DNA of 64,000 nt. It comes from Ascaphus truei. Taxonomy: Eukaryota > Chordata > Amphibia > Anura > Ascaphidae. Positions 1,292-64,000 of this stretch are shown here, in pieces. The position numbers were made by a program, and so were the translations under genes. Under the pieces are notes generated by a model. It worked only from the letters and a program-made list of their open reading frames with translations, did no database searches and had not been told where the DNA came from. Position 1 is the stretch's first letter. Every line of letters begins with the position of its first letter. The stretch is taken from NCBI GenBank assembly GCA_036426205.1, contig CM071567.1, positions 295,295,752 through 295,359,751 on the forward strand, given 5' to 3'.

Positions 1292-4200
1292 GAAAAGTGC
1301 CGGGGGAGATACTCCCCTTCGAGCATGTGTCCCCTTCATCGGTCCCCAAATATGAGGGACCGATTCCAAGACCCAGGGTGGGATATCTTCAACACAGGAG
1401 ACTGGCCCATCTTTAAAATGGAGTCAGAAGACCCACCCTTTGGGCACAGGAGCTACTCTCGGGGGCTCCCGAGATACGCCCTTGTTTTTTGTTTATCCCT
1501 TTTTACAATTTTATTATTATTTTCTTTTTCCCGTTTTAGCCCTCTTGTCGCTTCCCCTGTCTTGTCTACCTTTCCCTGCCCTCTCCCTTTCCCCTCCCTC
1601 TCCAGGGAGCATGGATTCCACCCAGAGCGTCTAACCGACACGATAGTTTGGGACACATCCGCCAGAAACCTCAGATATAATTTCACAAGTAAGTATGCAG
1701 ATCACTATATATATCATTCCCTGCTTCGTAATACATGGCGTTAACATTAATCTCTCACAATGTGAAGGGCTTTAATAGCCCAATCAAAAGAAAGATTGCC
1801 TTTACAGATTACAAGAGAAAACAAGCGGATGTGCTATTTCTACAAGAAACACACTTTAGTAATAATAGCTCCCCCAGGTTCCTAGATAGGGGCTTCTCCC
1901 AATTTTATACAGCATCAGCATCGGTCAAAAAACGTGGGGTAGCCATCGTATTTAACAACTCAATCCCATTTATTCTCCAGACAATCAAAAAAGATGTAGA
2001 TGGTCGTTATATCATTTTAACAGGGACCATACATGAGCAGCCTATTACGTTGGCCTCCCTCTACGCGCCCTGTACACAGGATGCGTCCTTTTTTGACAGA
2101 TTCTTCCGCCTGCTAAACTCAGCAGCTAAGGGATACACTATAATAGCAGGAGATTTTAACATCACAATGCAATCCTCAATAGACAGATCAGGGGGAAATG
2201 ACTCCGATAATAAAAAAGCTCAAAATTCCCTGCACAATGCCCTGAAAGATAATCAATTAGTAGACATATGGAGGGAGCTCCACCCTACGACAAGGGACTA
2301 CACTTTCTATTCCCACCCACACACCTCATATAGCAGAATCGATTATCTCTTCGTTTCGTGCCACCTGGTCCCTAAGGTCAATCATACAAAGATCCATGAT
2401 ATTTCATGGTCTGACCATGCACCAATTGAGCTCAGGTGCAACAATATTCAGACCAATAGACCAGGCGCAAACTGGAAACTTAATGAATCCATTCTTAAAA
2501 TACCCGAAACCTGCGAAACGATAGGTCAAGAAATAACTCAATTCTTTGAGATAAACACAGGCTCTGTGGAATCCCATATGACTTTATGGGAGGCTCATAA
2601 AGCAACGCTAAGGGGCATAATAATTAATCTCACTGCTAAAAGAAAACGAGTGAGGGATTCCAAAATTCGGACGCTCCAATCCAAATTGAATTCCCTTTCA
2701 TCGAGTCATAAGACCAATCCCGATCCACTTACGACACAGGAACTTAAAGATACAAAAATTGAATTGAATATGTTATTGACTTCCCGGGCGGATAACTCCC
2801 TATGTTGGTCTAAGAGGAAGTTTTATGAAAAAGCTAACAGGCCGGATACGATGCTGGCGCGCGCACTGAAAGATAGGCAATCTAAGTTTAATATCCAAGC
2901 TATACGCTTACAATCGGGTGTACTTACGGCCAATCCTAAAAAAATAGTGGAAGAATTCGGTTCATTTTATGGCTCCCTATACGACGGTAAGAAGGTGGCA
3001 CACAATAACAACACGAGCAGCGCACTAAGAGATTTCTTAGCCAGCTCAAAACTGGAGAGATTGACAGAGCTAGACAGAGAAGCTATTGGCGCTGACTTCA
3101 CATTGGAAGAAGTGTCGCAGGCCATCAAGGAGCTTAAGCCATCAAAGGCACCAGGCCCTGATGGCTTTTCGGGGCTTTATTATAAGAAATTTTCCGAATC
3201 ACTTGCTCCGAGGCTGCTCCAAATGTTTAATGCTATCTTAGCAGGAGCCCCTATTCCTGGGGACATGCTGCGGGCGTTTATATCACTTATACATAAACCT
3301 GGCAAAGATCCGCTAAATTGTTAAAGCTATAGGCCAATATCTCTAATTAATACCGATATCAAAATATATGCGAAATTATTGGCCAACAGATTAAGTCACA
3401 TCCTACCCAGACTAATACACCCAGATCAGGTCGGTTTTGTTAAGGGGAGGCAGGCAGCGGATAACACCCGACGATTTATTGATCTGTTGGAATTGGCTAA
3501 CAAAAATAACACACAAAGCATGCTATTAAGTCTGGATGCAGAAAAAGCTTTTGATAGGATAGACTGGCCATACTTAAAAGAGACGCTCGCGGCATTTGGC
3601 TTCGGAAATCGGGTGAGTAGAGCGATTATGTCACTATACTCAGGCCCAACCGCCAGGGTCATACATCAGGGCTTCCCCTCGGTCCCATTTCAAATCCAGA
3701 GTGGCACAAGACAGGGATGCCCTTTATCTCCCCTCCTGTTCGCCCTATGTATTGAACCCCTCGCGGCACGAATTCGAGATAGCCCGGATATCTCAGGGTT
3801 AAACGTTTACTCCCAATCACATAAAGCGGCCCTCTATGCTGATGATATCCTATTAATTATCTCCAAACCCCTTACGTCATTACCTAACCTGTTTGACCTA
3901 CTAGATAAATTCTCCAAGGTCTCAGGTTTCAAGATTAACCAATCCAAATCTGAAGCTCTGAATATCAACCTCCCTAGACATACAGAGAAATTACTGAAAC
4001 TAAATTTCAATTTTAACTGGCAAAAGAACTCGATAAAATATTTGGGGACCTATATCACCAAAGATGCAAAAAGCATCTATAAAGCAAATTATCCCAAACT
4101 GATCTGGACTCTAAAACAAGACCTAATCAGATGGTCTTCCAAGAAGATTTCTTGGATCGGAAGGATTCACAGCGTTAAGATGAATCTACTTCCCCGTATC

Positions 4201-5970
4201 CTATACCTCTTCCAGACACTACCTGTGCCACTCAAACTGAAGGACATACTCTCACTTCAGTCTGGAATATCTAATTTTATCTGGGGAGGTAAAAAACCGA
4301 GAGTAAATAAGTTATCTATGAAGAGACCTATTTTAGCGGGTGGCCTAGCGGTACCCTGCCTGTTGTCATATTTTAAAGCGGCTCAATTAAGCCAGGTCAT
4401 ACAATGGCATTCCGACCCCAAATTAAAAAGATGGGTTGAGCTTGAACATGCGGCTTGCTCCCCTTTAGAGCTTAACAATTTGATTTGGCTACCTAAAACA
4501 TCAAGGAAAAACACTATTTTACCGCTCACCTCAATAGCTAACTCCTTATCTGTTTGGGAAGCATCAAGATTAAAAAACTCACTTACTTCAGCAAATTCCC
4601 TGATGTCACCCATTTGGAATAATCCTAGCTTTGCACCGGGTCTTATTGGTCATAATCACTCAATTTGGAAACAAAAAGGCTATACTAGACTCAAAGATCT
4701 GGAGGGCCATGATCTAAAAATTAAATCTTTTGACCATATCAGACTAGAAAAAGACATCCCCCACACTGAATTCCATAAATACCTCCAGCTCAGATCATTT
4801 TATAATAAATTTGCCCCATACCCCCCATTAGCGAATTTTGAAAAGCTCTGTCGGGCAGAAACCGACACTAAGGGACTCATATCTACGATATACAGAGAGG
4901 TAATCGAGCCTGCAATCTCAAAGCACCAATCACCTACATTCCGTACCCAATGGGAAAGGGACCTAGGGGAGACCTTGGACGACGAAGAGTGGAAGGCTAT
5001 ATTCCTAGGAGCCGCAAAAAGTTCTATATGCACCACACTGAAGGAGAACGCATATAAAGTTCTTATGAGATGGTACCTCACCCCACTCAAATTATCTAAG
5101 TTTATACCAGGGTCCTCCCCATTGTGCCCTAAACAATGTGGAGGAACAGCTGACCTGTTACATATGCTGTGGTCTTGCCCGCTGATATACCCGCTATGGG
5201 AAAAGATCAGAAATTGGATCCAGAGAGTTTTCGATCTCACTATTCCCCCAGACCCGTGGCTGTTTCTCATGAACAGACCCCTAAAGAACCTATCAAAATC
5301 ACACAATAAACTAATTGCACATTTTGCTCTAGCTACGCGGTGCGAGATCGCAGCACTATGGAAACGCCCCGATATTCCAATTATCCCAAAGATTCGGAAT
5401 CGTATTTGGTTTATCTGCCAGATGGAAAAGTTAACGAGCTTAGTTAATGACACTGGTGACAATTATCTAAAAGTTTGGGCCCCCTGGCTTGCCCAAACAG
5501 ACATCCCTGGGGTAGAGCGTAACACAATTTGGCTATAATAGTAATAAATGCGTTCTCCTTTGGGGGCATGAGAACCAACCCCACACATAGCACCTCATAC
5601 TCCTTACGCCCAATCACTTATTCTACAGAAAAGCCTCACTAGTTGATACATAGTCCTCACGCTGTCCTGGTGTTCCCCAGATGTATTCTTGTCCTTGGAT
5701 ACACCTTCCCCCTCTCCTTCCCCCCCACCCCCTCCCTTACCTCCACCCCCCCCCCCTTGGTTTTTTTTTTTTTTTTATATATTATTATTTACCCCAGTAC
5801 CTTACACATGACGATTCCCACTCACGTGGTTAAGTAGGGCTCGAAAAACTACGTGAGTTTATTATGCTTTTGTTATTGTATATGATATGCTAAATATGCA
5901 CCTGATGTCTTTTTTTTTATGTATATCATGCATTTATGTATAATAAAATACAAGTTATAAAAAAAAAAAA
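1292..5970 (+). mobile_element. L1/Tx1-clade LINE, 5'-truncated, with 3' UTR and A-tail
   Basis: Non-LTR retrotransposon in sense orientation. It holds about 440 bases upstream of ORF2 (inter-ORF region or ORF1 tail), the whole of ORF2, a 3' UTR of about 430 bases with C- and T-rich runs (5725-5776), AATAAA at 5942-5947 and an A-run at 5959-5970. The left edge is uncertain. I put it near 1292 because TCCTTTTT occurs at 1284-1291 and again after the tail at 5974-5981, a possible but low-complexity target duplication. ORF1 is missing, which suggests 5' truncation on insertion. The A-tail and the nearly open ORF2 suggest a young copy. Confidence 0.85.
1735..5538 (+). pseudogene. Tx1-type LINE ORF2 (endonuclease + reverse transcriptase), one in-frame stop
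   Basis: The frame runs 1,267 codons with a single in-frame TAA at 3322-3324 (codon 530), so two open pieces (1735-3321 and 3325-5535) lie in the same frame. Residues 1-230 are an apurinic-type endonuclease: SHNVKG at 7-12, LQETH around E38, AGDFN at 138-142, RIDY at 201-204 and SDHAP at 226-230 supply the catalytic set. The RT region includes PGPDG at 473, LDAEKAFD with the first aspartate at 601, TRQGCPLSPLLF, and YADD at 701-704 (3835-3846). A C-terminal C-x3-C-x7-H-x4-C knuckle starts at C1131 (5125-5178). Length and domain order fit L1/Tx1 ORF2. The protein would nick DNA and prime reverse transcription of its own RNA. The stop lies between the PGPDG and YRPIS blocks, so an unsuppressed product would lack RT activity. 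Confidence 0.93.
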
Positions 5971-11443: not shown

Positions 11444-12276
11444 AGAGGGGGTGCCCAATGCTACATCCCATTGACAAAACATATACTGTATGAGGAAAAG
11501 TATAAAGTAAAATACTTCAATAATAATAATAATAATATTAAATACTTGGTTATTTAGTTAACCCTTTGGCCAAAGCGTCATAAGCCAGCATACCAACGCC
11601 AAGGTATAACCAAATTAATGCAGGTCCTACACTACACTACCCTGTGAACCCTTCCTTTTACCTCTGTAAGAGGGGAAGAACCATTATAGGTCTTGTTCCT
11701 GCAGCAAATGTAATGACCTTCCAAGTTAAAAAGGTGAAGGAGGAGGAGTGAGCTTTGGGGGGAGGTTCCACCAGCCTCCAAATTGACTGCTACCAGTCAG
11801 AAATTGATTAACACACATTCCTAGCTAGCTCAAACTCCCACACCCACCACATGATGGTGGCTGGTGGCACCTCCCCCCAGAGTTCACTCCTCCTCCTTCA
11901 CCTTTTTAACTTGGGAGGTCATTACATTTGCTGCAGGAACAAGACCTATAATGGTTCTTCCCCTCTTACAGAGGTAAAAGGAAGGGTTCACAGTGTAGTG
12001 TAGTGTAGGACCTGCATTAATTTGTTATACCTTGGCGTTTGTATGCAGGCTTATGACGCTTTGGCCAAAGGGTTAACTAAATAACCAAGTATTTAATATT
12101 ATTATTGAAGTATTTTACTTTATACTTTTCATCATATATGTTTTGTCAGTGGGATGTAGCATTGGGCACCCCCTGTCTCTTGTTATATACAATTGCCACG
12201 CTCAGTAGCTCTCTGGTTGACATAAATATATATTCATCATGTGGTGGGTGTGGGAGTTTGAGCTAGCTGGGAATGT
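11444..12276. mobile_element. Foldback element, 0.8 kb, inserted in LINE ORF2
   Basis: A long inverted repeat: the left arm (about 11446-11790) is the reverse complement of about 11860-12173, with a spacer of about 70 bases. A second inverted pair overlaps it: 11815-11857 matches the reverse complement of 12236-12275 (AGCTAGCTCAAACTCCCACA and its complement). The right half is therefore a unit of about 460 bp bounded by its own inverted repeat, and the left arm is a partial inverted copy. The flanks are CTGCACCTAGAAGA (11430-11443) and CTACACCTAGAAGA (12277-12290), a 14-base duplication with one difference. ORF2 resumes exactly after it. Confidence 0.75.
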
Positions 12277-24759: not shown

Positions 24760-25770
24760 CTTATAGCTGATAGCAACGTTCAGGACAAAGCACTAACCAG
24801 GAAATAAAAAGAACATTTGCACACATTCATGTTTGGTAAAGAATTTTTTTTTCTTTAACAGATCACCTTTGAATCAATTAAATAATTAAATTTGCTGATT
24901 CAAGAACTCAGAACCGAGAAAGATATGGGGGAAAAAAATACTCTGAATTATATTTACCATTAAAAAAAGTGTTTCACTTAAATTCTTAATGACTTATACT
25001 ACTTACACTTCCAAAGAACATATACAGACCAGCGCCCCAAAAAGTCCAATAAGTCCCAAATAGAGTCCAAACAAATGGAGGGGGAGAGAATCCAAATGGT
25101 CCAATCACTGAAAGATCTCCAATCCAGGGGTCCGTGACATAGGGACAGAAACAAAAGAAAATAATAGTGTAATACGTAATATTAAAATTGAACAAACAAC
25201 ATAAAACACTTAACAAGAGACATACATTAAACAAACAAGCTGAAAGTAAAATAACTATTTATTAAAACAAACGGAGCCTGCTGCAGCGGGTCATCAAGGG
25301 GTTAAAACCCAAAACCCTACTTACTGTAGGACTGGTATAACATGCGTGTATGACCAAGTGAGGCAGATGCCGGCAGCAGTAAGGGTCCTCGCGGGCTCCC
25401 CGATGTGTGGTATATATCCCTCTAACTTCGGAGCACTCTCCAAGATGGACGCCGAGTAAGGGAAATCCACACACTCCTGCATACAAGCAAAACAGCCTCT
25501 CTCGTGATATCTCGATGACGCTGCTTCCTGCTTCACTTGACTGACACGTTCTCACAACCAGTGTTTCTCCAAGGCACCGTGACCTCTGACCCTACGCGTT
25601 TCGTGACTGACGTCACTTCCTCAGGGGATGGTTCAGTAAAGGTGAAGTCCCATTCTATATACCTCACTCATCACTGATTGGATAGAGATAACTAATTCCA
25701 ATAAGTTTAAAATTCAGCTCTAACAAAACAAAACAGTACAAACTCTGACTAAAACAACCATATACACAAG

Positions 25771-25848
25771 GACAGACCTGTAAGCCTGACTTCAATAGTA
25801 GGGAAACTACTTGAAGGTTTAGTACGGGATAATATTCAGGAATACCTT
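25771..25848 (+). pseudogene. LINE reverse-transcriptase fragment in the foldback loop
   Basis: This 26-codon open stretch lies in the spacer between the two arms. It reads DRPVSLTSIVGKLLEGLV and then RDNIQEYL, the conserved Y/D-R-P-V-S-L-T-S block at the start of the RT domain of CR1/Jockey-like LINEs. It contains no stop. The element therefore either captured a LINE fragment or is itself a rearranged LINE copy. Confidence 0.7.
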
Positions 25849-25986
25849 GCTGCTGCCATTTGTGGGAGTTTGTACTATTTTGTTTTGTTAGAGCTGAATT
25901 TTAAACTTATTGGAATTAGTTATCTCTATCCAATCAGTGATGAGTGAGGTATATATAATGGGACATCACCTTTACTGAACCTACCC

Positions 25987-26017
25987 CTGAGGAAGTGACG
26001 TCAGTCACGAAACGCGT
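25987..26017 (+). ncRNA. Hammerhead-core-like hairpin (with mirror copy at 25594-25624, minus)
   Basis: CTGAGGA (25987-25993), one A, then GTGAC (25995-25999) and GTCAC (26004-26008) with a GTCA loop, then GAAACGCGT. CUGANGA, a helix and GAA are the conserved core of hammerhead ribozymes around helix II. An extra A sits before the helix, and helices I and III are not evident, so self-cleavage is doubtful. The motif recurs at 16955-16993 (minus) with a different but still paired stem. Confidence 0.4.
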
Positions 26018-26927
26018 AGGGTCAGAGGTCACGGTGCCTTGGAGAAACACTGGTTGTGAGAACGTGTCAGTCAAGTGAAGCAGGAAGCAGCGTCATCGAG
26101 ATATCGCGATAGAGGCTGTTTTGCTTGTATGCAGGAGTGTGTGGATTTCCCTTACTCGGCGTCCATCTTGGAGAGTGCTCCAAAGTTAGAGGGATATATA
26201 CCACACATCGGGGAGCCCGCAAGGACCCTTACTGCTGCCGGCGTCTGCCTCACTTGGTCATACACGCATGTTATTCCAGTCCTGCTGTAAGTAGGGTTTT
26301 GGGTTTTAACCCCTTGATGACCCGCTGCAGCAGGCTCCGTTTGTTTTAATAAATAGTTATTTTACTTTCAGCTTGTTTGTTTAATGTATGTCTCTTGTTA
26401 AGTGTTTTATGTTGTTTGTTCAATTTTAATATTACTTATTACACTATTATTTTCTTTTCTTTCTGTCCCTATGTCACGGACCCCTGGATTGGAGATCTTT
26501 CAGTGATTGGACCATTTGGATTATCTCCCCCTCCATTTGTTTGGACTCTATTTGGGACTTATTGGACTTTTTGGGGCGCTGGTCTGTATATGTTCTTTGT
26601 TTTTTCTCTGGTGTTGTTCTGCTAGTTTTCCTGGCTGCCCTGTATACATAGTGTATTGTTACATGTTTATTTAGTTTTTATATTGGTTGTATTTTTATTT
26701 TTATGGTTTATAGCGCCTAAGCACTTTCTTTTGTGTTACTTACACTCCCAAATCGCAATTTCACTCTGATAAGGCAAAATGTTTTCAAAGTACCCAGATA
26801 CGGTCAGAATAAAATATACAAAGTAAAAATCCCCTTTTTTTATCGTGATGTTGAAACGACTTTTTCTTTCTATTTAATAAAATGCATGTTGCACTCTTTT
26901 GTAAAAACAGGCCTTTACAGTGTAAGT

Positions 26928-41481: not shown

Positions 41482-42242
41482 TGTAACAGTGTTTCCCCCA
41501 CCCGGTGGGAGATTTGGCCATTACTACATATGTGGTGCATGATACCTGCTGTTAACAGGAGGGCTGAGCTGTCCGCCGATGGTAGTGGGGACACAGGATC
41601 AGGATTCTGGGGTTCATTACAAATATGGCTCTCTAGCAATGCTGCGCCTTCATCTGCCGCAGGCTCCAAGATGAATGTAGACGATCTCCTACGGTAGAAT
41701 TATTCCCTCTCCTACCAGTAAGATCACACACAGGTAGGAGGTATATGCAAACAGGAACAGTCTTTATTGAATACACCACAACACAGCAGTGGTCTGCTCA
41801 ATCACAGCTTCTCAGGATCAGACATCCACTGGAAGATGGTTCCTGGACAACCAATACAGGTCAGGGCCCCTGCAGCTGTCCTAGCTCTTCCTAACTCCCC
41901 TATCAGGAGTCAGGGTATAGGTCTACACTTGCTCTCCCCCAAGGGGAAGAGGAACAGGGAAGGCCCCAATCTCAGGCTCCCTGTATGCAACCTTGCCTCT
42001 CCCACTGAGAGAGGCACTCCTGAATTTGGGGCAGCACTGCCCTAAAATACAGCCAGGAGGAGGGTACCAGGTCTGTCCCACGATTGGATATGCTCAGGCC
42101 TGATGTCACTGTCTCCCACTGTCAGTCAAGTGCAGCACCAAGGAGTGGGGAAAACCCATATTGACTGCTGGCAAGGCCGGCTCTTACCAAGGCTTACGGC
42201 CAGTACAAGGGCAGATTAGTAACCACAGATGGCATGGCTACA
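41482..42242 (-). mobile_element. Solo LTR (family copy A), 761 bp, 4-bp target duplication
   Basis: It starts TGTAACAGTGTTTCCCCC, ends GGCATGGCTACA (TG...CA) and is flanked by CTAT on both sides (41478-41481, 42243-42246). An AATAAAG word on the minus strand (41761-41767) shows the LTR is read leftward. The same layout occurs at 45742-46497 and 47327-48075. No internal retrotransposon sequence is adjacent, so it probably formed by LTR-LTR recombination. Short frames within it are not genes. Confidence 0.8.
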
Positions 42243-44524: not shown

Positions 44525-45260
44525 AAATTGTGCAAACACTTTCTCCAAGTACACAGGAGTACATCAAACAGTGCATGCTGGGCTGAGCTGGGCCGCTTTC
44601 CTCGACTGCTCACTGTACAGAAGATAGCATTGAAATACTGGGCTCGCCTAAACAACAGCCATCCACAGTATTACTGCTACAGAGCAATGAGAAGCCAGGA
44701 GCTCCTCACTAAACCCTGCGCCATCAGCCAACCTGTCCTCCCACTCCCAGAACAAAATCTCACACCGATCAACAACCTGCCAAAAAAACACATCAACTCA
44801 ATCACCAGTGAAATGAAGGAGAAGTATATGACTATGTGGAAAAATGATACCAAGTGCTGAAAGAAGCCGGAGACTTACCACTGCGTACAGAAAGAATACA
44901 CCCTACCTACTGAAGGTAAATGACCCAAAGCAGAGACAGACCTTGTGCCAGTGCAGAATGAGTGCTCACAGCCTGGAAATAGAAACAGGCAGACGCAGAC
45001 AGAACTGGAAGCCCCGGGAGATGACTGTGCCATAGAGCTAGGAGAGGTACAGTAGAAGATTAAATACCCTTCCTGCTGCGCTCACACAATACTCTGAAGT
45101 GAGGAGTGCCCACTTGGAGAAACTCACAACTCTTATCCAGAATTTTAATAACATAGAAGAGAAGCAAAAAATAGCGATCCTCCTAGGAGAAGATGAAACC
45201 ACAGAACTGGCTGCACACTATATCAGTACCCGTCACAGGCTGAGAGACACCCACTAACCT
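44525..45260 (+). pseudogene. LINE C-terminal domain relic (I/Nimb-like)
   Basis: 44528-44860 reads KHFLQVHRSTSNSACWAELG, RFPRLLTVQKIALKYWARLN and on to a stop. 44930-45020 (another frame) gives CRMSAHSLEIETGRRR and PREMTVP. 45090-45255 gives LEKLTTLIQNFNNIEEKQ and AILLGEDETTELAAHYIS in pieces. This series, G-V-x-x-x-x-S-N..E-L-G-R-x-P, H-x-L-x-I-E-x-G-R and the A-A-x-Y-I end, is typical of the region after the RT in I/Nimb-like LINEs. RT and endonuclease are missing (5' truncation). Frameshifts are present. Confidence 0.6.
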
Positions 45261-45282
45261 CCACATCCTTGTTTATAACTGT

Positions 45283-45633
45283 TATCCATGTACTGTGTAA
45301 TCATTATACCTTACCCCCTGTTATTCATGTACTGTGTAATCATTATAGCCTACCCCCTGTTTTTCATGTACTGTGTAATCATTATACCCTACCCCCTGTT
45401 ATTCATGTACTGTGTAATCATTATAGCCTACCCCCTGTTATTCATGTACTGTGTAATCATTATAGCCTACCCCCTGTTATTCATGTACTGTGTAATCATT
45501 ATAGCCTACCCCCTGTTATTCATGTACTGTGTAACTATTATTCTCTACCCCCTGTTATTCATGTACTGTGTAATCATTATTCCTTACCCCCTGTTATTCA
45601 TGTACTGTGTAATCATTATACCCTACTCCCTGT
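45283..45633 (+). repeat. 39-bp tandem repeat, nine copies, in the LINE 3' tail
   Basis: The unit consists of TTATTCATGTACTGTGTAAT plus CATTATAGCCTACCCCCTG, 39 bases, repeated about nine times with few differences. It sits between the LINE stop and the terminal AATAAA (45677-45682) and GATTT-type tail. Because 39 is divisible by three, all frames stay open and give two long spurious plus-strand frames (45269-45709, 45288-45692). Confidence 0.9.
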
Positions 45634-45741
45634 TATTTATTCTTTTGACAATACTGAAATGTTTTTCTATAATGCTAATAAAGCTGATTTGATTTGTGTG
45701 TCTCAGTGAGTTAAGGAGTCTGAAAGCAATGACATTGCTTA

Positions 45742-46497
45742 TGTAGCCCATGTACCCCCACCCAATCTCATGTCGGGTACCCTAGGGTGTTTCTTGGTCT
45801 GGCTACATGTCTGAATGTGGTGCGTACCTGCTGGCAACAGGAAGGCCTGAGTCTCCCGCGATGACATGGGGGACAACAGGACAGGTTTCTGGGGTGAATG
45901 CCTTCGTTCTCCTTCTAATGGTGCAGCGCCTCCATCTGTAGTAGGCCCCAGGGATACGGGGTGGAATCCCTACTGCAGAATCCTCTCCCAGGGATGAGAG
46001 ATTCCAGTCTCCACACAAGGTCTCTTTCAATTAGCAGTAGCTCTTTATTGGCTTCTCTCATCAGCATACAATCAGGTACAAACAGTATACAGCCAGCCAG
46101 CCAGCTGTACTCCTTCAGGATGTCCCTGCCTCCACTCTGGGCCTCAGGGGCATTCAGAGTAGGGCTAGCTCTTCCCTCACCCCCTAAGCAGGGTGAGAGG
46201 TACTTGGTCCACCTCCTAACTATACTGCTTCACTCCTTTCCTAGCTAACTCACAGTACTAACTGTACTCTCAGACTTGTGTCACTAAATAGGAAGTGCAC
46301 TGCTCTTTATGGTTTCAGCAGGCACAGCCCCTGTGTCTCTTGATTGGACACAGGGTCAGGTGACCTACCTTCACCATTTCAGGGCCAGTGCTTGAGGTGG
46401 GGGAAACCCATGATAGCTCCTGGCAAACCTGCCCTTAACAGGGATTACTGCACAGGAGGAGGATAGAAATATAGCCCATAATCTTACCAGGGCTGCA
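45742..46497 (-). mobile_element. Solo LTR (family copy C), 756 bp, perfect 4-bp target duplication
   Basis: It begins TGTAGCCCATGTACCCCC and ends ACCAGGGCTGCA, flanked by CTTA on both sides (45738-45741, 46498-46501). The minus-strand AATAAAG word (46044-46050) sets the orientation. It is inserted about 30 bases past the end of the LINE tail. Confidence 0.82.
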
Positions 46498-47326: not shown

Positions 47327-48075
47327 TGTAGCGGTGTATCCCCCACCCTCTGGGAGATTTGCCCTGCTACCAGGTGTGTAGTGCTGGTACCTGCTGGTTT
47401 ACAGGACACCTAGGTGTCCGCCGATGGTAGTGGGGACATCAGGGCAGGATTCTGGGGTAGATGGTTGTTCTTTCTCACTCTGGTGTCAGCGCCTCAATCT
47501 CTTGCAGGCTCCAGGGATGTGGAGACAATCCCTGCACGAGAACTCACCGATACTCCCCCTGATAGATTGAACTCATAGACAAGAGTATATTTTATAACAG
47601 CCACTGTCTTATTCTTTACAGCATATAACAGCATACACTCCATACACAGCTTACTCTCTAGGCCTCCAGCCCCCGGATGATCCCTGGACTCGCATCCCCA
47701 GCCATGGGCACCAAGGGCGGTCTAGCTCTTCCCTGACTCCCTATTAGAGTCAGAGGTATCAGTCCCACTCCACTAGGGGAGGGAATAGAAGGTGACCAGA
47801 GCCCTGCACACACTATTCTAGGATATGTCTCTCTCAAGGGAGAGACAGAACTGGCTAAATTTGGTAATGCAGCCCTTTAAGTACCGAGGTGGAGGGTCGA
47901 AGGTCTGAGCCCTTTTTTGGGCAGAACACAGACCTTAGCCCGCCTCCTCCCCTGTCACTCAAGGGAGCTGCTTGCTGTGGGGAAACCCCTGGATTGGGCC
48001 TAACACTGCCTGCACTGTTACCAGGCCTTACATGTCAGGGAGGGCAGGTTAGTAGCCAAGCCAGGCATGGCTACA
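47327..48075 (-). mobile_element. Solo LTR (family copy B), 749 bp
   Basis: TGTAGCGGTGTATCCCCCAC at the left and GGCATGGCTACA at the right. The flanks GTAT and TTAT are a 4-base duplication with one difference. The interior follows copy A closely (CTTAAAGGGCTGC-type TATA-like word on the minus strand near 47873-47882). Confidence 0.75.
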
Positions 48076-55255: not shown

Positions 55256-56046
55256 TGTTTTTTATATAAATATGCTTTAGTTCAAATCAAAAATATTAAG
55301 CTATTAATTGATAGCACTACAGTAGATGCCCTTCAATACAGTAGGAAGATACCTTTGAAATGGTAAACAGTTTACATAAATGTATTAACAGGCATAGTTC
55401 AAAAGTATAGATGCACACGATAGCCCAGTAACATGCTATAGAGTTAATGAGATAAATGATATGTCTCTCATTGCTGTAAGAATGTACCAGTTTAGCACTG
55501 TACAGTGTATGCAACATTGAGGCTCTTATCCATACTAATTCTTGTCTATTCTCTCCCTTGTTTAATTGGATAAACATATTGATAGGCCACAACAGATTGT
55601 TTAGGTAAGGCCAATGAAAGATAAATAATATGTAACAGTGCCCCCCTCCCCCCCACCCCCCCAAATCTCAGATCGGGGCCATTACTGGGTGTTTGTGGTG
55701 CATACCTGCTGGTAACAGGAGGGCCGAGTCATCCCCTGTAACTTTGGGACTTCAGGAACAGGCTTCTGGGGTCCATACCCCACGATATACTTAGCAGTGC
55801 AGCGCCTCGATCTGCCGTTGGCTCCAGGGATATGGAGGCGATCTCCCACGGTAGAATCGTAACTCTCCCCCCAGTTAGATCACAAACCAGGCAGGAGGTA
55901 TATTGCAAACAGGAACAGGTTTATTACTACTCTTAGTGCAGTAAGGTACAGGTACTCAGAAGGTACAGGTACTCAACAGTCACCTGCCGGATCACAGTCT
56001 CGTATATCAGCTCTCAGGTATCACCGGAGATAGTGGCAAGAGAGCA

Positions 56047-56300
56047 GATCCGGCGCCACTGCGCATGACAAAGATCCAAGCTACTTCCGGATGAATTCAC
56101 AAATCTTTATTGGCCCATAACACACAAGGCTACACCACGATCTCCCCCTCAACGTGTTTCACGCTATGGAACAGCGCTGTTCCATAGCATGAAATGAGTT
56201 GAGGGAGATTCGTGGTGTTGCCTTGTGTTATAGTGCCATATAAAGATTTGTGAATTCATCCGGACTTAGCTTGGATCTTTGTCATCGCAGTGACGCCGGA
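56047..56300. repeat. Palindrome, about 125-bp arms, no spacer
   Basis: 56047-56175 is the imperfect reverse complement of 56176-56300. The centre, 56163-56188, is a perfect 26-base palindrome around GGAACAGCGCTGTTCC. The arms include GATCCGGCGCCACTG / CAGTGACGCCGGATC and AAATCTTTATTGGCCC / GTGCCATATAAAGATTT. AACGTGTTTCACGC near the centre resembles the ACGCGTTTCG motif of the repeats at 16955 and 25594. Confidence 0.85.
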
Positions 56301-56440
56301 TCTTCTCTTTTTCATTATCTTCATAGAAGCTGCACCGGGATTTTCCAAGGAGCATTGTAGAGCAGTGACCCATACCAGAGCTTCTATCTAGGTAAGGGTG
56401 TCCCTTCCAATTCCTGTGTCACACAGAGGTTACTTATCTT

Positions 56441-56686
56441 TTGCAACCCTCACTCCATATCCTTAGTGACATTCTTGACACTCGTCACGGGTGGAGTAGA
56501 CCACTACCGAAGCGCAAGACAGTTTCATTTGGTTTATCAATGAATCCTATCTCTTCCCCCCACTTCCCTGCCCGGGAGGCAGAGGTATATTCACTCCTAC
56601 TCCCTCCCCGCAGGGAAGAGCACATGGGTAGGGGTCTGTATATTAAACTCAAAGACGGGCTAGATAGAAATGTGAGAAGTTCCTAA
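56441..56686 (+). other. Unassigned 81-codon open frame beside the palindrome
   Basis: An open frame on the plus strand, MQPSLHILSDILDTRHGWSR to LKDGLDRNVRSS, lies between the palindrome and the purine-rich block. Its text is less biased than that of other frames nearby, but I do not recognise a domain. It is preceded by a CTAGGTAAGGG splice-donor-like word at 56389. It may be chance. Confidence 0.2.
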
Positions 56687-56689
56687 GGC

Positions 56690-59050
56690 AGCGAAGGAAA
56701 GAAGAGTCAGGTAGAACGGGGAAAACAATACAAAGTATGGTAAGAGCGACCAAGGGTGAATCGCCGGCTACAGCCACATTTTGTTGATGGATGAGAGAAG
56801 AGAATCAACACACTTATCCCACACAGGAAGGAACACACGGTAACACAAAACAGAAAGGAGGCGGGAAAGAACCGAACAAGTAAGCGAAGCTTAAGATGGA
56901 ATATCTAATTAGGGGAAAGTAAGGAGTCAAAGGAAAGAAAGGGAAAGCAGATATTCATCTGATCAAAAACGTCGCTGCGGAGTTAGTGGAACCGCACACA
57001 TAATGGGATAAGGATACTTGAGCTCCCAGTGAATAGCGAAAAAGCGGGCGACGGCGGAAAAGGGTGTATCAAAAACTCCAAGTGGATGTAGACGAAAGAA
57101 CACATAGATCGCGAATAAACATAAGAGGGTAGCAAAATCGAGGCGAAAGGAAAACGCCCAAACACCCGCGAATCATCTACAAGAGAAAAAGAGACGCAGG
57201 GAGTAGGGGAGAGACTATCGGACACGGATGACTAGAGGATACAGGGACTATGGGTCGAGAAGGAACTATGTCAAAACGGGGACAAGCAGCAGTGAGATGG
57301 GGGAGAAAAAAAAGCACCACTCGCCCGTCAAGACAAGGAGCGCGTGACGGGCGGCTAGCTAAGCCGATATTACCCATAGCCTCTTAGGCCTGAACGAAAC
57401 TACAGAACAGAGAGCCGATGGCTGAGGGATTCTAGGAAAATCGGAATCGGAACGAGCAGTAGAAGGGAGCCAGCACACGAGGCCAAAGGTAACGACCCGA
57501 ACTGGAAAGGACGGGGTAACAACCAGAGGAGGAATTAAGAATCAGCGGGAACAAATGACAGCCGGCGGGAAACGGGGAACAGCGCCCGGAAAACGGGAGA
57601 TAAAAGTTATGAGAAATAGGTACACAAATTCGAAGATGAGAACAACTGAGCAAAAAAGACGGAAATAGTTGAGGGGGGATCCTAGGAAAGTGTGCCGGAG
57701 GGGAACGAAGAGCAGCGAAGAGGGAGGGCCGGAAACGAAATAACGAGGAGTCATTCGGAATGGGAATAAACGAGCATCACAGAAGGAGAAGAACTGTGGT
57801 TGATGGAAGCAGAGATGAGGGGGGGCGGAGGCAGCAGACGAGGAAAGTATTAAGGAAGCACTTGCTAATCAAGGAGTGGAGGAGGGGGGAGGGAAGCGGA
57901 TAGAAGGGGCCCACAACGAGGCAACCGGGGAGCGAAGCAAGGAAGGGTATGGGTAGCAACGGTCGGTAAAAAACGCAAGCGTAGCACAGCCCTTGCGTGC
58001 GGAGTGGCACCAGAAGGAAACAAGGAAGACAAGAAGGGCTGCCCACAGACATAAACTGGGGGGTGAAACGGGTCCTTTTAACGGAAACGCAACGTAGCTA
58101 GAAACAGAGGCGAAATACGTACAGTCAAATGTCAACATTGAACGAAAAACGAGGGTGTGGAATAACAGAAGACAGCAACACGACGTGTAAAAATGATTAG
58201 ATCTAAAGCGCTTCGAAGCGAAGAGGCACGAAATAGCCGGCGGTAGAGGCAAGGAAGATGGGAGCGCGAGGGCGCTGAGGGAGAAGGAAACGAGCATTTA
58301 TACACCATAGGAGCACGGGCCCCTTCCGGAGAGACCGTTAGCCGCAGACAAAAAGTCGGAGAATACCAAAGAAACTAGAAGAAAACGGTGAAGCCGCCAG
58401 TGGAGGATATAGTTATGGGGTCAGGACCGGAAGGGGGAAGGGCATCAGAGAGAGGTACATGAGCAAGGGAGGCCAACGGGCCGACTAACAGCTCGGGCCC
58501 TAAGACCAGCGGACGAAAACGGAGTCGTTGCAAACGGGCGGGCATAGAAATTCTGAGGGCGGAGAGGACAAAAGCCCATGCCCTCCGTGTACGTACAGGT
58601 CACAGTAATGAACAATGAGGGAAGAAAATGGCGAAACGAGATATGAGACAAACCTACGGCATAAGAGCGGAATTAGCAAAGGAATAGGATAACGTAGAGT
58701 GGCAGTACGGGAACAACACGACGGAGGCAATAGAAAAAGGTAAATTGTAGAAAAATTAGAGCAGAACAGCGGCGCAAGAACAAATAAGGGGCAAGCGGAA
58801 AGCAGAAAGAAAGTGGAATGACGGCCGGACGCAGGATCTGCCAGGGAGAGACGTCGGAGTTGAGGAAAGAAAGTCAGGAGATGCTAAGCACAGAACAAGT
58901 ATGATGAGCGAAGGGGTTGGAATAACAATGGGTGAGGGCAAGAAGAAAGTTGAAGGAGGGGAAGGGGTGCGGGAAAATGGACCCCAGCGTACCACAGACT
59001 AATATGGACATAGTCGGCGGCGAGACTGCGATCGAAACTCTAGGGTGTTA
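56690..59050. other. Purine-rich, CpG-rich block of unknown origin
   Basis: About 2.4 kb in which the plus strand is roughly two-thirds A+G by eye and CpG is frequent (for example five CpG in 57036-57060), unlike the CpG-poor DNA around it. It has no internal tandem period that I can see and no plus-strand frame of 60 codons. The minus strand is pyrimidine-rich and therefore stop-poor, giving overlapping frames in all three phases (for example 57869-58297). These look compositional, not coding. The block lies inside an LTR, right of a palindrome. Confidence 0.6.
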
Positions 59051-59474
59051 GGTGGAAGAGTAGATTCCGCTAGAAGAGCAGGAGCAAGAATAGCAACGGG
59101 GCCATGGGCGGTTTGGCGCAAGAATATAAGCCTCCCCCAAAAACAGCAGTACAGTCTCCACCTATTCCTTCCCCTTCTTTCCCATATCCTTGGGCATGGC
59201 ACTTCGCCTCACTCACTTGGGGGACAGTGGAACGATCACCAACTTTGGGGCGGTCCTGCCCTTAAGTACAGCCAGGGTGCGGAGTACCCTTGACCCAGCC
59301 AACAAGGATATGCCTTCCCCTGCCATCACTCAAAAGTTCAGTACCAAAAGATGAAGGGATGAAAACCCATAATAACTACTGGCGACCTGTAATACAAGGA
59401 TTTGCCAGCCCATAGGTAGATTTAGTAACCAGGGGGTAACCCGTTAAACTCTACCTCTGGTGGAAATACCAACA

Positions 59475-59484
59475 TCCCCGCTTT
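59475..59484 (-). promoter_or_regulatory. Candidate polypurine tract next to LTR copy D
   Basis: On the minus strand AAAGCGGGGA directly precedes the LTR start TGTTGG. A purine run of this kind primes plus-strand DNA synthesis in LTR retroelements. One C interrupts it, so the call is tentative. Confidence 0.35.
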
Positions 59485-59755
59485 GGGTTCTAAATTTTCG
59501 GGTACCATCTTTGATGTAACTGAACAACAAAATAACATTTCACATGATATATCACATTAATATGCATTATATACATTTTTATTGTGAAAACAGCACAGGT
59601 CATATATTCACCATATACTTATATTATTACGGTAATATACACATGGGTTCCTCCAACGGGGAGAACCTTGATTTCAATAATAATGTTAAGGATCAGGTTT
59701 CCACACTGATATTCCTGATGCATCAGTAACAGTGACAGAGAATACCCTCTTTGAA
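59485..59755 (-). other. 3' region of the unknown ORF
   Basis: Runs from the ORF stop to the candidate polypurine tract. On the minus strand it contains AATAAA (59583-59578) 170 bases after the stop. It is AT-rich and has no further frame except a 28-codon one overlapping the LTR border. Confidence 0.35.
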
Positions 59756-60851
59756 TTACTCCACTCTGTCCAGGTACACTGACCTACCAACTTTCCAAAC
59801 TTGGACAAGATAGGCCTCTCGCTCATGTATATTGTGGAATGTACTGCAGTTGTGCTCTAGCACATAAGCTTTTACCGCTTCAATCAGCCATTGTTCCCGA
59901 TTAGCATCAATTTCTCGCATAATATGCTCCAGAACCTATGGAAACTCAAAACCATGTGAACTTCTGTACTTTTGTAACATAAGTCGCTCGGCACAGCTAA
60001 TTTTAGTAAGCCAGCGACCTTCAGCTCTACCTGGTAGAACCCAGTATAAAGGTTCCTGAATGGGAGACACATATTTTGCTGGCACATTACTCGACAGCTG
60101 TAACTGGCCCGCCATTATATCCGCTTCCATTGTCCTCATTTCCTGAGCAGCCTTATCAGGACTATACACCCCTTTTGCCCACCAATTGTGAACTATATTG
60201 TCGGTTTCTAATAAGAACCTTGTGCGGTCCATAAAGTATACATATCCCTGAAACCGGGAGTGCCACCATGAGTGTGAACTAGCAGGCCCAGCTACAGCAA
60301 CCCCTGGGTGTGAAATATCGGTGGAAGTGGTAGCATCAGAGTTATTAACAGACTTGCTACTGACTAAATCCACTATTTACACTGCAATTGTCTACATCTT
60401 CATTAGTAACATAATCATCTGGAATATCATTATCATTTGTAACAACATTACTATCGGTCAGCATAGTATTCCCATAAGTCCAGTCCTTCCAGTCCGAAGA
60501 GGGAATATGATTCCTAGAGGCCCACAAGCTCCTTTTTCTGGAGTAATGTTCTCCTGCGCCCGATCAGCTTCCAGCGGCGGCAACCCACCCCTCAGACTTC
60601 CGGACTGAAGGGGTTCCCTGAGCAGAAGATGGGCAAATGTCCCGCAGACCAGCGGTACTGGTCGTGGACAAAGGGGCCTTGCAAGTGTCCAAGTCCCGAA
60701 CAAGTACGTCCCTGAGGCCCGAAACTAACGTAATACTCAGTATTGACTGCACAGCAATGGGCTTTGGCCTTGATAGGGAATCCGACACATAGCCTTTGTG
60801 CGATGCCCAACTCGCAGGAGTAGAACACTGTTGAATGTCATGATCTGCCAT
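59756..60851 (-). pseudogene. Unrecognised ORF of about 365 codons, two stops and one frameshift
   Basis: From ATG at 60851 the minus strand reads MADHDIQQCSTPASWASHKG and stays open for 95 codons to a TGA (60566-60564). The same frame then continues about 70 codons to near 60375. A one-base frame change leads into 145 codons (60373-59939), then TAG at 59938-59936, then 58 more codons to TAA at 59758-59756. The N-terminal half is Ser/Thr/Asn/Asp-rich. The C-terminal half looks globular, with many aromatic residues (for example LYWVLPGRAEGRWLTK, VLEHIMREIDANREQWLIEA). I see no signal peptide, membrane segment, zinc motif or catalytic signature, and do not recognise the family. Its place next to an LTR suggests a retroelement or viral accessory ORF; a captured gene is possible. 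Confidence 0.5.
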
Positions 60852-61411
60852 GATTATTAAATGTATTTTTACTGTTTAAATAGTTTCACCATATTTACTT
60901 CTTTTGCTAAATAATCAAATATAGAAACTTGTGTCATACTGTAGTGCCAACGATTATTCTAAACAACATCAGGGCAATCACCAAAAGACCCAGGTACATG
61001 CTGGTAACATGCTGGAACATTCTCACAATTTCTGAAGACAGACTAATGGCCCATCGATTAACAGCGGGGTCCCTCCGTCCCATTCAAAACTGAATGGCAC
61101 TGCCAGGAACCCCTGCTGTGTTAATCCGATAGGGCGTTATTCCTCTGCAGAAATGTGTGAAATGTTCCAGCATGTACCCAGCATGTACCCAGCATGTACC
61201 TGGGTCTTTTTGGTGATTGCCCCTGATTTGTTTTAGAATAATCGTCGGCACTACAGTATGACACAAGTTTCTATATTTGATTATTTAGCAAAAGAAGTAA
61301 ATATGGTGAAACTATTTAAACAGTAAAAATACATTTAATAATCATGGCAGATCATGACATTCAACAGTGTTCTACTCCTGCGGGTTGGGCATCGCACAAA
61401 GGCTATGTGTC
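60784..61411. repeat. Head-to-head palindrome duplicating the ORF 5' end
   Basis: The left arm 60784-61086 is the reverse complement of 61091-61411 with a 4-base centre (CATTCA AAAC TGAATG at 61081-61096). The outer 230 bases of each arm are almost identical; the inner parts are more diverged and the right arm has extra CCAGCATGTAC units. Each arm carries the same upstream region and the ATG plus about 23 codons, so start codons point outward at 60851 (-) and 61343 (+). Only the leftward copy continues into a long frame. Confidence 0.85.
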
Positions 61412-62620
61412 TTGTTGGTGATAAACTCAGATTTTCCAAGGCAAGTGTTAGAATACTCGTTGGCGCACCTGTATATTCTAAAGTGTAAAAAAAAAGTGAA
61501 AAAGAGAAGATACTGCTAGAGAATGATCATTTTGTAGTCATCATATAGACCAATTTTAAAAATAGTTTACATTTCACTTGAGAATACCAGGATTCTCCCC
61601 CCCCCCCCCCCCGACCCTTTAAGAATTATAATACATTGATGGCAGAGACACATGAAGACATTCCAGATAATCACAATGTATTTAGGTTGGGATTTCTCGA
61701 GCTCCAATGTGGAGTATGGCACCAGGTCTGACTATAACTGTGATTGACTCCGCCGGATCTGGGGGTATCGGTATTGCGCATCGAAGCTTGAGGAATCCTG
61801 GCCTTAGAAGTTTCAGAGTCTCTTACAGTTGTCAAGATCATAAAAATCACACAGAGATCAAAAGAAAGAAAGTCCGCAACCTCCCCGAAATGTCATCCAT
61901 TTTGATTGGTATTATAAGGTAACACTGTGTAAGGCCCAGCTGGCTGCAAACTGGGGCAACACCAGTGAACAAACAACACCAGATTTATTAAAAAAAATGA
62001 CTCCAACTGCAGATTAAAAAAAATAAGTATAATTATTTTGCACTGGCTTGGTCCCAGTTTTGCAGCCAGATGTAATAAATAACCCCCTAAAATGTGAAGT
62101 TGCCACACTAACTAATGTGATGGTGTTGACACAATCTTTGCATTACAAAATAATTGCTCTCAGCGCAGCTAGCGAGCAATGTTTGAGCAAATGAGTGTTT
62201 GGAATTCTTGTTCTAGATATCCCCCTCCACTCTTAAACATTGTATTATTTAAATAAAGATCTCTCTGAACTGTTACCAAGAAGTAGGACATACCTGAAAA
62301 TGACACCAATCAATGAGTAATGGAATTGTCATAGTGCTAGGTGACATGGAGGGATGCAGAGATTGACCACTCCACCTGTTCAGGACTGCAGCATAGTTAA
62401 GCAAATTAAGTTTTAAAAAAAAAATTCTTACACACAACTCATTCGTTGTTGCACATACACAAGAAGAGCATTTGTGATGTAAAAATGAATGAATCCCATT
62501 CTAACATTTAAGAAGCATTTTCCCTAATTACTTTTATTGTTCTTTGCATAACTACATTTATTGCTCCCAGGTGGTCTGACTCAGGCATAGAAAAATCTGA
62601 AGAAATGACCGGCCTCTGAA
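61412..62620. other. Unique DNA with a poly-C run
   Basis: No LTR-like match to the element on the left. A 16-base C-run lies at 61597-61612. The frame at 61707-61922 has no domain. Confidence 0.35.
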
Positions 62621-62627
62621 AGATACA

Positions 62628-62984
62628 GATGCAGCGGCCGTTATTCGAAACAAATCACGGCGCCTTTTTCATGTGCGCTGCAGTACGCCATGCGGCATTA
62701 ACGCCGCCAATCGCCCCAGGCACACATGTTTATTGCGGTTGCTATGTTTGAATTTCATGGATTGTGTGCAATTAAATGCAATTAAATGAATGAATTTTAA
62801 TGTGTACAGTACAATGCTACTGTGTCAATTTCAGGTGTTTAAAAACCAAAACACTAAAATGCCATTTTCTGCACTCGCCTGCACTCGCGTCTAAAGGCGG
62901 TACGGTTGGAAGAAATCATGCGCCATCACATGGGCATTCCAAGGTATACAACGCGTGAAGTGTTTCAATAACGGCCGCTGCATC
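62628..62984. mobile_element. MITE with 18-bp perfect inverted ends
   Basis: GATGCAGCGGCCGTTATT (62628-62645) is the exact complement of AATAACGGCCGCTGCATC (62967-62984), and similarity continues inward (CGAAACA / TGTTTC). TA-containing flanks (GATACA, TATATG) leave the duplication ambiguous. Both terminal regions are CpG-rich and the middle is AT-rich. No coding capacity. Confidence 0.75.
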
Positions 62985-63466
62985 TATATGACCCAATGAT
63001 CCTTTGTAAAACATGTTAAACGAACCTAAGTGTATACATTTCCAACGTAAATACTACAAATACTGCAGCCCACATCTGTACAGATGCAGCAGGCATGATT
63101 ACCCCCGTTGACACTAGTTAACACAATAAATGTTTAGAAAATGATTGTGTGCATTAAAGAGGACGCATGCATTTCTATCTTTTTCAATAGAGTTGCTGTT
63201 TTTGTTACGATAAATAACCCAGGAGTGTTGTGCTACAGTATATCTGTACATACTGTAGTATGTTACATGAACAAAACCTCACATTGATGGATCGGAAGCA
63301 TAAGGCTCATATTTAATAAACAATGCTATTGTACATGACCCCTTAAAGCCCATTCACGAGGAGGTGTGTTATTAGGTAGCAGTGCATGGTAAATATGGCC
63401 ATTTATCGCCCATTGACTGGAATGGCCTATAATAACTTTCCAAAGATCATAATCCACTGAGTTAGA
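62985..63466. other. Unique AT-rich DNA
   Basis: No repeat or gene recognised. A (TA)n run follows at about 63465-63490. Confidence 0.3.
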
Positions 63467-63493
63467 TATATATATATATATATATATATAGTA

Positions 63494-64000
63494 TGTAACC
63501 AGGTCCCCTCCGGTCCCCCTTACATCCGCTGCCGCGGGGGATGTTGCGGGGAGGTGCAGGTAGCGACGGGCTCATCGGCGGCTCCTGGCAAGGGGCGCCA
63601 CCATGTTGGAGTGCGGGCGCATGCGTAGAGGGAGCTCCAGTGGTCATTACCAAGTTGCGCATGCGCAGTACGCTAGGCGCACACGGTGGCTGTTAGGGAT
63701 AGGCTCCGCGGGGACTACAAGCCCCATAATGCATAGGGGCATGCAGACATATGACCACACCCAGCCATAAGGGCTGAGAGGATTCGCCTGCAAGGATTAG
63801 TTACATTTGGCGCGCTCAGGTCAGATAGGCAGTCGGAGCTGGGACACAGATAGGGGAGGTTGTAGGCACAGGGTGTCTGTGGCCCCTGCACTAGGCCAGG
63901 TATCCCCCTAGGCCCCAGCTAGGCCCCAAATCACCAAGTAAAGATTGTGACTGCTACAGGAACAGGCCCTTAGGTAGGGACCCTGCCCCATTAGCTGTTT
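63494..64000 (+). mobile_element. CpG-rich LTR-like or MITE sequence cut by the window end
   Basis: Opens TGTAACCAGGTCCCCTCCGG right after a (TA)n run and stays GC/CpG-rich to the end of the window. TGTAAC is also the first word of LTR copies A and D, and AGGTCCCC occurs at the left end of the CpG-rich MITE copies. Without the other end it cannot be classified. Confidence 0.3.

Follow-up and report, generated by a model that had tools for sequence, protein, structure and literature searches.

A decayed reading frame starting inside a palindrome upstream of an LTR in Ascaphus truei, tentatively read as the 3' end of an LTR element cut by snap-back inversion

A decayed reading frame of about 364 codons, which runs on the minus strand from 60851 to 59756 and is broken by two in-frame stops and one frame change, starts inside one arm of a palindrome in Ascaphus truei and is followed, in the same orientation, by an LTR. 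Positions refer to the 64-kb stretch of contig CM071567.1 analysed here (the window). Tentatively, we read this locus as the 3' end of a decayed, endogenous-retrovirus-like LTR element of an anuran, carrying an orphan ORF of accessory type, the 5' side of which was cut by a snap-back inversion.

The frame consists of four pieces. Piece 1 (60564-60851) begins with the ATG at 60851-60849, has its first 68 nt within the palindrome arm and comprises 95 codons before an in-frame stop at 60566-60564. Beyond this stop the same frame continues as piece 2 (60357-60563, 68 codons), the product of which is acidic. Inside 60376-60360 the frame changes to that of piece 3 (59936-60376, 146 codons, in-frame stop at 59938-59936). 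Piece 4 (59756-59935), in the frame of piece 3, adds 59 codons up to the end stop at 59758-59756. The preliminary description had given about 365 codons, two stops and one frameshift for this minus-strand frame, and its coordinates and counts proved to be right.

This frame is not a product of chance, because with one frame change allowed the region 59756-60860 contains a minimum of two stops on the minus strand, compared to a mean of 10.5 and a minimum of five in dinucleotide shuffles (n = 1000, better strand counted), none of which reached two. The corresponding value for the plus strand is nine. The longest single open run (146 codons) was matched by 21 of the 1000 shuffles and is unremarkable on its own. 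Three-base periodicity was clear in pieces 2 and 4, where 0/300 and 3/300 shuffles reached the observed value, and weaker in pieces 3 and 1 (25/300 and 37/300, respectively); two L1 frames used as controls were reached by 0/300 and 2/300 shuffles. A further convincing copy of the frame pieces was not detected within the window.

A position model of coding, trained on the small set formed by pieces 2-4 of the same ORF, favoured the expected frame in the part lying in the arm and in the whole N-terminal part beyond it, and gave this frame the worst score upstream of the ATG. The frame of piece 1 was the best of the three at 60564-60783 and the second best at 60675-60783. With the reservation of the small training set, this drop in coding signal ahead of the ATG makes it probable that translation once began within the arm. 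The ATG is preceded by an A at -3 and followed by a G at +4. We regard the frame as the remnant of a gene that was formerly coding and that started inside the palindrome arm.

Self-alignment confirmed the earlier claim that the frame starts inside a 628-bp palindrome (60784-61411), which is 88% alike to its own reverse complement over 650 columns. Left arm (60784-61086) and right arm (61091-61411) meet at an axis (61087-61090) formed by a 4-nt loop between the halves of a perfect 7-bp inverted repeat. Snap-back copying leaves just such a short stem with a small loop behind. As had also been described, both arms hold the ATG and the first codons: the shared 68 nt comprise the ATG followed by 21 complete codons, and one residue differs between the arms. 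The second ATG, at 61344 on the plus strand, opens a frame of 25 codons which halts just past the arm end (stop at 61419-61421). At 61411 the palindrome ends abruptly, with unrelated sequence beyond. The two outward-pointing starts of the preliminary description, one of them leading to a long frame, are present. The evidence does not establish them as a permanent arrangement in which both starts functioned: the second frame breaks off after 25 codons, the palindrome lacks a flanking target duplication and the axis is of the snap-back type. The flanks read GATAGGGAATCC on the left and TTGTTGGTGATA on the right, and the target duplication at the outer ends by which a DNA transposon or a hairpin MITE would be recognised was not found. 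Self-comparison of the window did not reveal the arm sequence again at the opposite end of the ORF either. A prokaryotic promoter and terminator scan of the palindrome, a method not applicable to a vertebrate, gave values near chance.

The two arms do not appear to be of one age along their length. In the outer 180 alignment columns there are two mismatches and no gaps, compared to nine mismatches and 24 gap columns in the inner 144 columns. In its inner part the right arm has roughly one additional repeat of an 11-bp unit, and a number of the differences there reflect single-base runs of unequal length. The difference between inner and outer arms gave p = 0.004 in a Fisher test, in which the inner part was entered as 9/114 (the alignment gives 9/120 aligned columns) and the split at 180 columns was chosen after inspection of the alignment. 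After a single snap-back event equal divergence would be expected throughout the arms; the uneven divergence therefore argues against one event followed by uniform mutation. Gene conversion is known for long palindromes, and conversion between the outer arms, or alternatively extra mutation near the axis, could explain the pattern.

Downstream of the frame and on the same strand follow an AATAAA (59578-59583), a candidate polypurine tract (59475-59484) and an LTR (55631-59474), just as the preliminary description had listed them. The candidate tract has nine purines in ten positions with one interruption, is weak, and abuts the TGTTGG of the LTR. With about 3.84 kb this LTR is stretched compared to a solo LTR of the same family (41482-42242, minus strand, 761 bp), which has TGT...ACA ends and CTAT on both sides. 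The stretched LTR likewise has TGT...ACA ends and resembles the solo LTR in its end regions, its putative 5' edge lying just outside the stretch of similarity. At the downstream end (55925-55677) the similarity is 74% over 259 columns. At the upstream end (from 59431), the edge of which is weakly supported, it is 63% over 253 columns under relaxed scoring; default scoring gave a 33-bp core at 85%, and one self-comparison of the window listed nothing there. Two further copies were found on the minus strand: one of full size (47327-48075, 749 bp), which has 65% similarity to the solo LTR over 789 columns and is flanked by GTAT and TTAT (three of four bases alike), and a partial or decayed one of about 650 bp (45815-46467), matched at both end regions only. 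Judged by its similarity to these three copies, the LTR downstream of the frame is real. It ends with CACTGTTACA at 55631, followed by TATT, while GGGA precedes its start. Such unduplicated flanks are expected of a 3' LTR with the internal part attached and not of a solo LTR.

The extra DNA inside the stretched LTR (55992-59186) amounts to 3.2 kb and replaces 144 bp of the solo LTR. It is absent from the three other family copies in the window and is therefore probably a later insertion. The alternative, a family with LTRs of 3.8 kb, is less likely, as the copies of 749, 761 and about 650 bp lack this DNA. Within the extra DNA, at 56554-59167, lies a 2.4-kb tract in which purines make up 70% of the plus strand, the longest such strand asymmetry in the window. 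Qualifying 200-bp windows form a run of length 2414 there (next longest, 882), and the tract shows no three-base periodicity (chi-square 4.4, 6 df). The extra DNA also contains an imperfect hairpin (85% alike) at 56028-56320.

The protein encoded by the frame resembles no family in the libraries searched. Pfam searches with the four pieces, also with X at the stops, returned up to E 10 nothing but RNR_N (E 0.032 and 0.22), with scores below the family cut-off which we take as chance matches. Pfam contains a foamy BEL model. The best hits of the four pieces in PHROGs (E 0.15) and among PDB sequences (E 0.14) were not beyond chance, and NCBIfam gave none up to E 1. In viral contigs, searches with the four pieces gave 6, 22, 5 and 12 stretches that fitted a pattern, and none was confirmed. 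A set of 5.8 billion proteins, including frog proteins, yielded eight candidates with piece 3 as query, none up to E 1, and 302 with pieces 3 and 4, none up to E 10; this search, run with pieces 3 and 4, needs shared five-residue words and could miss distant relatives. As a control, the L1 ORF of the window found 244 proteins in this set at E 1e-20 or better, with Xenopus, Leptobrachium, Ascaphus and Pelobates among the matches listed. A clear match to a known gag, env or host gene thus did not emerge from Pfam, PHROGs, NCBIfam, PDB or viral contigs, nor for pieces 3-4 from the protein set. Accordingly, the earlier term "undescribed" holds insofar as there is no family match in these libraries, and goes too far where it says more than that no relative was found at this sensitivity. 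Furthermore, CCHC, DTG/DSG and YxDD patterns are absent from the frame pieces, and no 19-residue stretch exceeds a hydropathy of 1.5. Without these patterns or a hydrophobic stretch, the product is unlikely to be a protease, polymerase or envelope protein, which, on sequence features, would leave an accessory or Gag-like role for it.

We also searched for the rest of the element between the palindrome and the end of the window. In 61412-64000 none of the 19 open stretches with 40 or more codons on the minus strand and none of 10 plus-strand open stretches (three at the left edge, 61342-61731, not counted) matched Pfam at E 0.1. Gag or pol domains were detected by Pfam neither in these stretches nor in the four ORF pieces, and env was likewise not found in the scanned open stretches of 61.4-64 kb. 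An element that ends at the palindrome would predict this lack of family matches. An LTR of the stretched-LTR family was not found between 61411 and 64000; a second LTR could lie beyond 64000. What we state on copies of the ORF, the palindrome and the LTR applies to this window.

Several other repeats were observed in the window. An L1-type ORF2 in two long frames (1735-5538) has relatives in Xenopus, Leptobrachium and Ascaphus, and for the ORF at 1735-3321 the four highest-scoring matches are unnamed, while the best named ones come from Xenopus tropicalis, Leptobrachium leishanense and Ascaphus truei, which marks the window as vertebrate and most likely anuran DNA. A tblastn search of the L1 ORF against phages as well as RNA family and tRNA scans gave nothing bearing on the ORF or the palindrome. 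A palindrome larger than the one described above (25012-26599) has 741-nt arms which are 97% alike and a 106-nt spacer reading RPVSLTSIVGKLLEGLVRDNIQEYL, which we take to resemble a motif of LINE-type reverse transcriptases. The inverted repeat at 11503-12131 is hairpin-like and MITE-like with a diverged centre, and another possible MITE (62623-62989) is bounded by 23-bp inverted repeats, 321 nt apart and 96% complementary. A tandem array at 45201-45718 has a 39-bp unit, a period that is a multiple of three, and its ORFs of 134 and 146 aa are probably spurious.

In the reading we prefer, the element would have carried, all on the minus strand, an accessory-type ORF, a short 3' UTR, the polypurine tract and the LTR, the latter having been stretched later by foreign DNA of about 3.2 kb. 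A cut at the axis near 61086 would have truncated the element. The broken 3' end may have folded back through the 7-bp inverted repeat with its 4-nt loop and primed the copying of its own strand over about 320 bp, before the copied end was joined to unrelated DNA at 61411. This would have produced the second, useless start, and the palindrome would be specific to this one copy. The role of the ORF, the snap-back origin of the palindrome and this order of events are what we infer from the arrangement of the locus. That the ORF belonged to the LTR element is suggested by order and position, by the common orientation and by the weak polypurine tract. Against this link speaks that gag, pol, env, a primer binding site and a second stretched LTR were not found in the window.

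The main rival explanation, nearly as likely as the preferred one, is that ORF and palindrome form a different mobile element, e.g. a DNA transposon or a long-hairpin element with the ORF start in its terminal repeat, and that the LTR is a mere neighbour. With three other copies in 64 kb the LTR family is common enough to make a chance neighbour plausible; this frequency slightly weakens the preferred explanation and slightly strengthens the rival one. The weakness of the polypurine tract and the other long palindromes at 11503-12131, 25012-26599 and 56028-56320, which indicate that hairpin-like repeats are common here, fit a different element as well. Nevertheless, such an element is opposed by the palindrome flanks lacking a target duplication, by the missing second arm copy at the far end of the ORF and by the absence of a transposase match for the four pieces in Pfam.

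Alternatively, the palindrome might belong to the regular make-up of an element family not yet described, in which it would act as a control region for both directions, with a start facing outward on each side and one of the two now broken. The outer arms, which include the ATG and the DNA upstream of it, are indeed nearly identical (two differences in 180 columns) around an old-looking axis, and the ATG context is favourable in both arms. We nevertheless regard this as unlikely, considering that the frame of the right arm extends for no more than 25 codons and terminates barely outside the arm, that one copy was seen in the 64-kb window, and that a snap-back with gene conversion explains the same pattern. 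A somewhat lower probability is assigned to the specific version of an undescribed anuran retroelement family with an orphan protein, the start-region palindrome and two outward starts of which are kept by arm-to-arm gene conversion. It is improbable that the palindrome is an inverted chimera produced by amplification or sequencing, i.e. a library or assembly artefact: the 4-nt loop and the changes of run length among the inner differences would fit snap-back copying in the tube, but neither nine inner-arm mismatches nor an abrupt end at 61411 with unrelated sequence behind it is expected at read level. Least probable of all we consider a decayed host gene or retrocopy outside mobile-element DNA. 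The AATAAA downstream of the frame and the lack of matches to mobile-element families would suit such an origin; yet no poly-A tail follows the AATAAA, and the protein set with its frog proteins contained no relative of the last two pieces. Besides host-gene origins, those from DIRS elements and MITEs were considered and ranked lower. Ordinary mechanisms, i.e. retroelement decay, snap-back inversion and gene conversion, suffice to explain this single decayed copy. Should the ORF prove to be an accessory gene of an LTR element, the poorly mapped set of orphan proteins in amphibian retroelements would gain a further member.

Foamy-like endogenous retroviruses of amphibians and fish (newt and cichlid) carry accessory genes without clear relatives between env and the 3' LTR (PMC5512871). 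Our ORF, likewise without clear similarity to known proteins and followed by a putative 3' LTR, would resemble this arrangement. It has been likened to these genes by position and description, and with 364 codons it differs from them in size (164 aa in newt, 234-253 aa for acc1a, acc1b and acc2 of cichlids; PMC5512871). Furthermore, those viruses possess env, whereas no pol, env or gag was found at our locus. XtERV-S, a class III endogenous retrovirus of Xenopus tropicalis, likewise exhibits TGT...ACA LTR ends, and it has a polypurine tract before the 3' LTR, to which the candidate tract of our locus may correspond (PMC8278194). Its small additional ORF is located in pol, whereas the ORF described here adjoins the LTR, and copies related to XtERV-S show a 5-bp duplication compared to 4 bp at the solo LTR 41482-42242; a palindrome is not mentioned in the section of that report drawn upon here (PMC8278194). 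DIRS-like retrotransposons of Xenopus combine a Gag-like first ORF with inverted repeats, which in their case lie at opposite ends of the element and not head to head as in our palindrome (PMC9210276). A tyrosine recombinase or reverse transcriptase, as in DIRS elements, was not detected by Pfam in the pieces scanned. In yeast, foldback inversions arise from single-strand hairpins in which the loop measures a few bases and the stem can be as short as 4 bp (PMC7467729). Our locus differs from these in that only about 320 bp are inverted and the arm divergence is uneven, but as in yeast, a sequence is duplicated in inverted orientation on either side of a hairpin with a short stem and a small loop, and a secondary join follows (PMC7467729).
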